Below are positions 37,649-38,949 of a stretch of DNA of 64,000 bases, in pieces. The position numbers and the translations under genes were made by a program. The stretch spans positions 1-64,000 of the forward strand of contig JASLOA010000038.1 in NCBI GenBank assembly GCA_030745755.1. The letters are read 5' to 3'. How positions within the stretch are numbered: the first letter of the stretch is position 1; each line of letters begins with the position of its first letter. This DNA is from Kiritimatiellia bacterium (GTDB lineage: Bacteria > Verrucomicrobiota > Kiritimatiellia > UBA8416 > JABMPJ01). Below the pieces are notes generated by a model. The model made no database searches and had not been told where the DNA came from. It saw nothing but the letters and a program-made list of their open reading frames with translations.

Positions 37649-38128
37649 CTATCGCCTCGCCCGGAAGAACCCCTGCAGTATCTCTCGACACTGGTCCTCC
37701 ATCACCCCCGTCACGACCTCGCAGCGGTGGTTGAGGTCGGGGTGGTCGAGGATGTTGAACACCGACAACGCGCCACCGCGCTTCGGATCGGGTACGCCGT
37801 AGACGACGGTCGGCACGCGTGCCAGCACGATTCCCCCGGCACACATGGGGCAGGGCTCTTTCGTGACGTAGAGGATTGTGTCGGTCAGGCGCCAGTCGCC
37901 GATGGTGGAGGCGGCCTGTGTGATGGCGATCATCTCGGCATGTGCGGTAGGGTCGCGCAGCAGTTCGGTCTGGTTATGGGCCCGGCCAAGTATGGCGCCG
38001 ACGGGCATCTCGCGATCCTCCGCCGTATTGATGATGATGCAGCCGGCCGGTACCTCCTCTGCCGCCGCGGCCTTTTCCGCCTCCTTCAGCGCCAAGGTCA
38101 TGAAATGCTCGTGTCCACGTAGTGTCAT
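37649..38128 (-). CDS. Nucleoside/tRNA-adenosine deaminase family protein (TadA-like)
   Basis: TAHAEMIAI and EPCPMCAGGIVLARV zinc deaminase motifs. Confidence 0.85.
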   Translation of the reverse strand: MTLRGHEHFMTLALKEAEKAAAAEEVPAGCIIINTAEDREMPVGAILGRAHNQTELLRDPTAHAEMIAITQAASTIGDWRLTDTILYVTKEPCPMCAGGIVLARVPTVVYGVPDPKRGGALSVFNILDHPDLNHRCEVVTGVMEDQCREILQGFFRARR

Positions 38129-38175
38129 ACCGGGGATGGTAGCCGAACAAGTGGGGGCCGTGCATCTGTTTTCTG

Positions 38176-38426
38176 GATAACGTTCAAATGTTCGGTGGCG
38201 TGGCCCCCTGCCGGCTCGCCCGGCAGGAGCCAAAAGCTTATCGGCCACTGCAGTCAGAGTGTATCCCGCAGCGGCTGGTGAGGCGCGAGAAAGAGGCCGT
38301 AGGGCAAGGCTCGCGCAAACCAGCCGCGGGGCTACTTGAGTCCTTATCTTGGCCTTTAGGCTGATTCACCTGCCAGACGAGCTGGCAGGGGTCGAGAAGC
38401 CCAGCCGTCGGGATTTGAACGTTATC
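38176..38426. mobile_element. MITE-like non-autonomous element (14-bp perfect TIR, 8-bp TSD)
   Basis: TIRs GATAACGTTCAAAT (38176-38189) / ATTTGAACGTTATC (38413-38426); flanking direct repeats GTTTTCTG at 38168-38175 and 38427-38434; internal hairpins. Confidence 0.8.
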
Positions 38427-38464
38427 GTTTTCTGCGGCCTTTACTGTCAGGACTATGGTGCGGC

Positions 38465-38572
38465 GGAGATGCTTCGGCTGCGCTCAGCATGACAGAAAGC
38501 CCTGGGAGAGTGTCATCCCGCCTGCCCGCCATAGCCCATCGGGCGACGGCGGGAGCTTGCCGAGGGATCTCC
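38465..38572. repeat. REPIN-like inverted pair (L-R) with nested insert
   Basis: ggagatgcttcggctgcgctcagcatgaca ... tgtcatcccgCCTGCCCGCCATAGCCCATCGGGCGACGGCGGGagcttgccgagggatctcc. Confidence 0.85.
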
Positions 38573-38676: not shown

Positions 38677-38949
38677 ATGAAACATCGCGACAAAATTGTG
38701 GATGTGTTCTGTCAGGTCACCGATCCTGTCGAGATGGACCGGTTCCTGGGGGAGATTCTAACCGAGGCGGAGCGGCACGATCTGGCATTGCGCTGGAAGC
38801 TGATGGAGATGATCGAAGACGGTATGTCGCAGCGTGAGGTAGCCGCCGCGCTTGGTATCAGTCTCTGCAAGATCACGCGCGGCTCCCGCGTGCTCAAGAA
38901 GCGCGGGTCCGTATGTCGCAATCTAATCAAACAGCACAGCCATGAATAA
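38677..38949 (+). CDS. trpR: TrpR-family repressor
   Basis: ILTEAERHDLALRWKLMEMIEDGMSQREVAAALGISLCKITRGSRVLK. Confidence 0.88.
   Translation: MKHRDKIVDVFCQVTDPVEMDRFLGEILTEAERHDLALRWKLMEMIEDGMSQREVAAALGISLCKITRGSRVLKKRGSVCRNLIKQHSHE

Follow-up and report, generated by a model that had tools for sequence, protein, structure and literature searches.

The tadA–trpR locus and its empty counterpart

The window analysed here, a 64,000-nucleotide stretch of a Kiritimatiellota draft genome (G000), holds a 251-bp non-coding element (positions 38176 to 38426) between two divergent genes, tadA on the minus strand and a trpR-like gene on the plus strand. The element has perfect 14-bp terminal inverted repeats (TIRs), with an exact 8-bp duplication directly outside them. 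The features of the locus are as follows.

37649 to 38128, minus strand: tadA (tRNA adenosine deaminase-like), Pfam deaminase matches, ATG at 38128
38168 to 38175, plus strand: left target-site duplication GTTTTCTG, an exact match to 38427 to 38434 and single copy at the G001/G002 empty site
38176 to 38189, plus strand: left TIR GATAACGTTCAAAT, outer 14 bp perfect, with ends common to the ISH6 IS and other copies
38203 to 38393, plus strand: hairpin-capped cassette of 191 nt (covariance model R1), with homologues in 13 of the 31 genomes of the order
38207 to 38227, plus strand: terminal hairpin 1, CCTGCCGG-CTCGC-CCGGCAGG, 8-bp stem and 5-nt loop
38235 to 38246, plus strand: 5' arm of the second stem, AGCTTATCGGCC (helix 2, two-sided changes in 6 of 9 pairs)
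38271 to 38327, plus strand: central two-part stem-loop, GCGGCTGGT / GCGCGAG
38351 to 38362, plus strand: 3' arm of the second stem, GGCCTTTAGGCT (helix 2)
38369 to 38389, plus strand: terminal hairpin 2, CCTGCCAG-ACGAG-CTGGCAGG, 8-bp stem and 5-nt loop
38413 to 38426, plus strand: right TIR, the inverted copy of 38176 to 38189
38427 to 38434, plus strand: right copy of the 8-bp duplication GTTTTCTG, read from the sequence
38677 to 38949, plus strand: trpR-like repressor (Pfam PF01371, E = 2.3e-16)

The TIRs, the 8-bp duplication and the three hairpins described in the initial annotation are thus all present, the central stem being made of two parts (38271 to 38279 with 38319 to 38327, 9 bp; 38283 to 38289 with 38310 to 38316, 7 bp). 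It had also held that no ORF fills the element, and this is borne out: there is no ORF of at least 60 amino acids within it, and the ORFs reaching into it are only extensions of flanking frames, one of which is tadA read from an upstream GTG. A promoter and terminator scan of 38.0 to 38.7 kb gave no signal inside the element. Its predicted fold lies 7.5 standard deviations below those of dinucleotide shuffles, none of the 200 shuffles being as low. Judging from its relatives, the ancestral TIR was 25 bp long (GATAACGTTCAAATGTTGAYGCCTG), the left one reaching to about 38200, of which the window keeps only the outer 14 bp perfect.

Because the tadA start codon (38128, conserved in G001 and G002) lies 39 bp short of the duplication, the element is located in the tadA upstream region. 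In G001 and G002, two species of the window's genus, the expected empty site exists: 39 bp upstream of tadA, each has one copy of the target GTTTTCTG and no element (TTGCATCTGTTTTCTGCGGC in G001 and GTGCATCTGTTTTCTACAG in G002). The left flank of this site aligns over 270 bp, whereas the right flank aligns for only about 4 nt past the duplication (G001), because the gene order changes there and another gene follows in G001; the empty-site evidence is therefore strong on one side only.

The surroundings of the element differ in other respects. Another gene is found upstream of tadA in the congeners (L178 and L181 of G002 contig C205; L179 of G001 contig C51), so that the window's genome has either lost this gene or moved it next to the element, and the distance between tadA and trpR in G002 is about 2.8 kb. 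Directly to the right of the element, positions 38461 to 38571 resemble a dispersed repeat (GGAGATGCTTCGGCTGCGCTCAGCATGACA ... TGTCATCCCG ... GAGGGATCTCC), similar pieces of which occur at L002, L116 and L123.

Related copies and the ISH6 partner

Full-length or near-full-length relatives of the element, at about 75% identity, are found in two genomes of the same genus (G001, G004) and in one of the same order (G018), and copies in these three genomes carry different 8-bp duplications, as had been anticipated for a transposed element. The duplication is exact in the L014 copy (GATATTTC) and in the L015 copy (AAGAGCTT), and it matches at 7 of 8 positions in the L021 copy. An exact 8-bp duplication is also shared by two contig ends of G018 (L033 and L038; AAGGAATT); with a target motif in common, some exact contig-end matches of this length are expected by chance. 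At several decayed copies no duplication can be recognised; within the window's own genome just one further copy (L002) has recognisable ends, and it is decayed and lacks a duplication. A pattern scan of the whole collection found near-exact ends at both sides in only two other records, both of them public Kiritimatiellae/Verrucomicrobia MAGs, one labelled BS-750m. Taken together, the same-ended copies with other duplications and the empty site indicate that the element is not a product of chance.

In G004, about 25 contig ends (L130 to L149) stop some 120 bp inside ISH6-ended elements with four inner sequences, as though several such elements had expanded and broken the assembly.

The 25-bp end GATAACGTTCAAATGTTGAYGCCTG is carried by an IS in G002 (C277/C238) and in G001 (C51, C66/C23 and others), and it is found both on the IS loci L043, L054, L061 and L053 and on MITE copies. 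The product of the IS scores 415.8 bits with the NCBIfam model of the ISH6-family transposase (NF041731; cut-off 240, E = 1.7e-124); a Pfam search of this protein gave no significant match, and a family search recovered the ISH6 transposase again in G002 (E = 7.7e-125). The same-ended, full-length IS that had been postulated thus exists in G001 and G002 as an ISH6 transposase IS, but no unbroken copy was read, since each copy is broken by contig ends and the transposase was read there. Two of these ends, in G001 C66/C23 (L042/L070), share the exact IS duplication AAAGGGTT.

The target motif is a second line of evidence, separate from the transposase match. According to Guerillot et al. (PMC3942029), the site that ISH6 elements duplicate is an AT-rich motif of 8 bp, AANATNTT, and the target derived here from 60 distinct ends, AANNNNTT (A 0.68, A 0.80, T 0.85, T 0.78), is close to it. 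The window's own duplication GTTTTCTG is an exception that departs from AANNNNTT.

It is therefore very probable that the element is a MITE, a non-autonomous derivative of the ISH6 family that was moved in trans in a Kiritimatiellota bacterium. Mobilisation in trans of a non-autonomous element had been suggested from the window itself, and the empty site, the varied duplications and the same-ended ISH6 IS lend it support. We infer the act of transposition itself: an ISH6 DDE transposase made elsewhere would have recognised the 25-bp TIRs and would have excised or copied the element, whose insertion 39 bp upstream of tadA would have duplicated the 8-bp site GTTTTCTG. In the window's own genome (a 92% complete draft of 63 contigs) no ISH6 transposase was found, a provisional result given that assembly often loses IS copies, so the window copy is, for the present, probably stranded there. 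Sharing a genome with its transposase is in any case no part of what defines a relic MITE.

The hairpin-capped cassette and its vehicles

Most homologues of the cassette (a hairpin, a palindromic middle and a second hairpin) in the 13 genomes lack ISH6 ends, and there are often dozens of strand matches per genome, with palindromes counted on both strands. In a sample of the phylum, searched with stricter filters (E up to 1e-9), the cassette was found in 6 of 146 genomes, the window's own included. The covariance model was built from 20 cassette members; it was trained on two groups only, and the fold of distant members is partly imposed by it. On the window, model R1 scores 168.8 bits on the plus strand (the window being in the training set) and 109 bits on the minus strand. 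The cassettes range from 67 to 234 bp and share a common hairpin design: the stem is 8 bp long and encloses a 5-nt YTYRY loop, with GNCC as the foot and WGNNNNAGMTT as the inner flank. Their stems start with CC/GG, and 31 different stems occur among 74 elements. At one locus of the window's genome (L011, contig C57, 107.6 to 111.2 kb), two fragments of the cassette, some 2.4 kb from each other, have a right flank in common (CTGATTTTGGTGGAAAAGTGATGTTG), suggestive of the duplication of a cassette-bearing region.

The cassette also occurs between at least three other, unrelated types of TIR: (i) GTAACCGTTAAGCTTG at L113 and L118, (ii) ATTTGACTTCGTA at L240, L242 and L245, and (iii) GGGCGCATTGCAGCTCTGCCGG in G006 (L249, L253 to L256 and L258), where the duplications are 9 bp long (GCAAACATG at L256 and AGTTACATG at L258). 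A weaker type, CAGCAATTCGCATTATG, is found in G021 and G025, and ATGGCGCTC flanks L266 on both sides. Compared with mismatched flank pairs, the better cases reach individual p values of 0.004 to 0.03, uncorrected for the number of elements, the control itself containing related flanks; the recurrence of each TIR in several loci is a stronger argument than these p values. Conversely, ISH6 ends enclose interiors other than the cassette at L048, L124 and L126. Since the cassette sits in other TIRs and ISH6 ends hold other interiors, the TIRs and the cassette are separable modules, and as judged from these sequence comparisons the cassette is a separate recurrent unit that is not specific to ISH6. 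In many further cassettes, a comparison of left with right flanks revealed no TIR, duplication or flank consensus, and many TIR-less copies stop sharply at GNCCCC...GGGGNC.

Compensatory changes preserve the hairpins of the cassette. The local terminal hairpins of 68 elements are Watson-Crick at 1073 of 1088 positions (98.6%), whereas the long-range pairing between the two hairpins is Watson-Crick at 853 of 1088 (78%); stem complementarity was counted on the raw sequence by a simple best-stem search, which somewhat favours pairing. Among the 49 elements whose hairpins differ, the corresponding values are 98.3% and 70%. For both structures, covariation is higher than in all, or nearly all, of the shuffles and higher than in the slid controls, tests that are inflated by kinship among the copies. 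The initial annotation had offered two alternative folds, of which the three-hairpin form is the conserved one; the single long palindrome is weaker and is rejected as the conserved fold, because it is broken where the hairpins differ. An integron attC reading of the GCTTAAC...GTTAAGC motif was likewise rejected, as variants of the motif occur (GCTTATC, GCTTAGC, AAGATC) and the outer hairpins are at odds with such a site.

A selected transcript would tolerate G-U pairs on its own strand and would not tolerate A-C. On the plus strand, the long-range pairing contains 20 G-U against 18 A-C cells; in ISH6-type copies, the central stem has 1 G-U against 10 A-C. These counts are small and depend on an uncertain orientation of the distant members. 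G-U pairs are found at only 9 of 1088 positions in the terminal hairpins, and when the hairpins are read from the outside inward there are 9 G-U against 2 A-C (p = 0.065, not significant). The missing excess of G-U over A-C argues against a selected plus-strand transcript and for a DNA-level palindrome or correction between repeat arms. An Rfam search of 37.6 to 39.0 kb gave no match at E values up to 1. From these base-pair counts, a DNA-level role of the cassette is favoured over an RNA role, though as a preference rather than a proof, and the RNA role raised in the initial annotation is left unsupported by the pairing on the tested strand and by the Rfam result.

Alternative explanations and significance

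What the cassette does may be explained in several ways. A structured regulatory RNA, or a 5' UTR element of tadA or trpR, that was copied around the genome and whose fold was kept for the transcript would account for the very stable fold (z = -7.5), for covariation above the shuffles and slid controls, for variable stems surrounded by a conserved loop and flanking motif, and for a position upstream of two genes. This is nevertheless improbable: G-U and A-C are about equally frequent in the outer stems on the plus strand, the central stem is skewed toward A-C, the terminal hairpins have almost no G-U, Rfam has no match, and the model matches both strands strongly. Moreover, two congeners lack the element at the orthologous site, which shows that tadA can do without it. 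The hairpins most likely would act as DNA structures instead, bound by a host or transposition factor, or forming a mobile unit that MITEs picked up; between recognition of the hairpins by a factor and a mobile hairpin unit, our choice is made with low confidence. The cassette may also be a DNA-structure aid to transposition or to survival.

A cassette that is itself mobile, hairpin-ended and moved by some enzyme without target duplication could have repeatedly landed in MITEs or been captured by them, with ISH6 ends as a later vehicle. Its sharp ends in copies lacking any TIR, duplication or flank consensus, its presence in at least three other TIR types, including the G006 type with 9-bp duplications, and the ISH6 ends that lack it (L124, L048 and L126) all agree with this; yet we consider it rather doubtful, as no enzyme was identified, the RAYT genes here are flanked by other palindromes, and erosion of the ends of old MITEs could have produced the TIR-less copies (a degenerate ISH6-like end survives in L091). 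Palindromes of the REPIN/BIME type, mobilised by a RAYT (Y1 tyrosine transposase), are a further alternative, and RAYT genes are indeed present in these genomes, as are dispersed inverted hairpin pairs and TIR-less copies without target duplication. However, the RAYT loci bear a different hairpin (CCCAGGC..GCCTGGG, with 3-nt loops), the CCTGCC hairpin lies near only 1 of 10 inspected RAYT loci, no GTAG tag stands beside the cassette hairpins, which have a GNCC foot, and this reading would leave the window copy's TIRs and 8-bp duplication unexplained. Mobilisation of the hairpins by RAYT is accordingly rejected as very improbable, since the RAYT loci have their own, different palindromes. The RAYT-type Y1 transposase genes (L185 on G000 contig C27, L182, L183, L191 and L193), with their CCCAGGC-NNN-GCCTGGG palindromes, represent a separate REP system of these genomes.

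With the element taken as an ISH6-derived MITE, its relation to known systems can be summarised as follows. The ISH6 family, p-MULT 2, has Mutator-related DDE transposases, and its published members are almost all archaeal, with one in Desulfobacterium (PMC3942029); a survey in which the 15 ISH6-containing genomes came from high-salt habitats suggests a restriction to such habitats (PMC9208149). The transposase scoring well over the model cut-off, the 8-bp duplications and a target AANNNNTT near AANATNTT are like those of ISH6, whereas the host belongs to a Kiritimatiellota MAG lineage and the window element has no transposase gene. In the open papers searched, only one text brings ISH6, MITEs and terminal inverted repeats together, and no ISH6 MITE is described in the passages found there.

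Prokaryotic MITEs with strongly folded interiors have been described, for example QMITE2 of Coxiella (reviewed in PMC10969869). The element resembles QMITE2, ERIC and Correia in its size, TIRs, 7- to 9-bp duplications and non-coding core with a stable stem-loop; unlike them, it has a modular core that is common to MITEs with unrelated TIRs, and its stem sequences turn over. The cassette also resembles GTAG and CGTC REPs and REPINs (PMC3733652, PMC3116915) in stem length (about 8 bp), in loop size (4 to 5 nt, as in CGTC REPs, for which, as for the cassette, no dedicated transposase is known), in its head-to-head pairs and in its alternative complementary stems. It differs from them in lacking a GTAG or CGTC tag, in its GNCC foot and WGNNNNAGMTT inner flank, in stems that begin with CC/GG, and in forming paired units of 67 to 234 bp with a palindromic middle. 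The MITE itself is ordinary in kind; the more unusual part is the modular, structure-conserved cassette.

Because the foot and the YTYRY loop are fixed while the stems change freely and yet are always complementary, the cassette may be defined by structure. We tentatively propose that the 67- to 234-bp cassettes could be a structure-defined class of mobile or selectable Kiritimatiellota DNA, recruited by unrelated MITE families with different transposases, which would either serve its carriers or move by a hairpin-reading enzyme.

Our findings link an orphan element with the family of its transposase and extend the range of ISH6, so far archaea and one Desulfobacterium, to Kiritimatiellota. 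If one structure-defined cassette does ride on MITE families with different TIRs and duplication lengths, the interior of a MITE would not be just filler, and it would become testable whether the hairpins aid transposition, shield the element or are mobile on their own.
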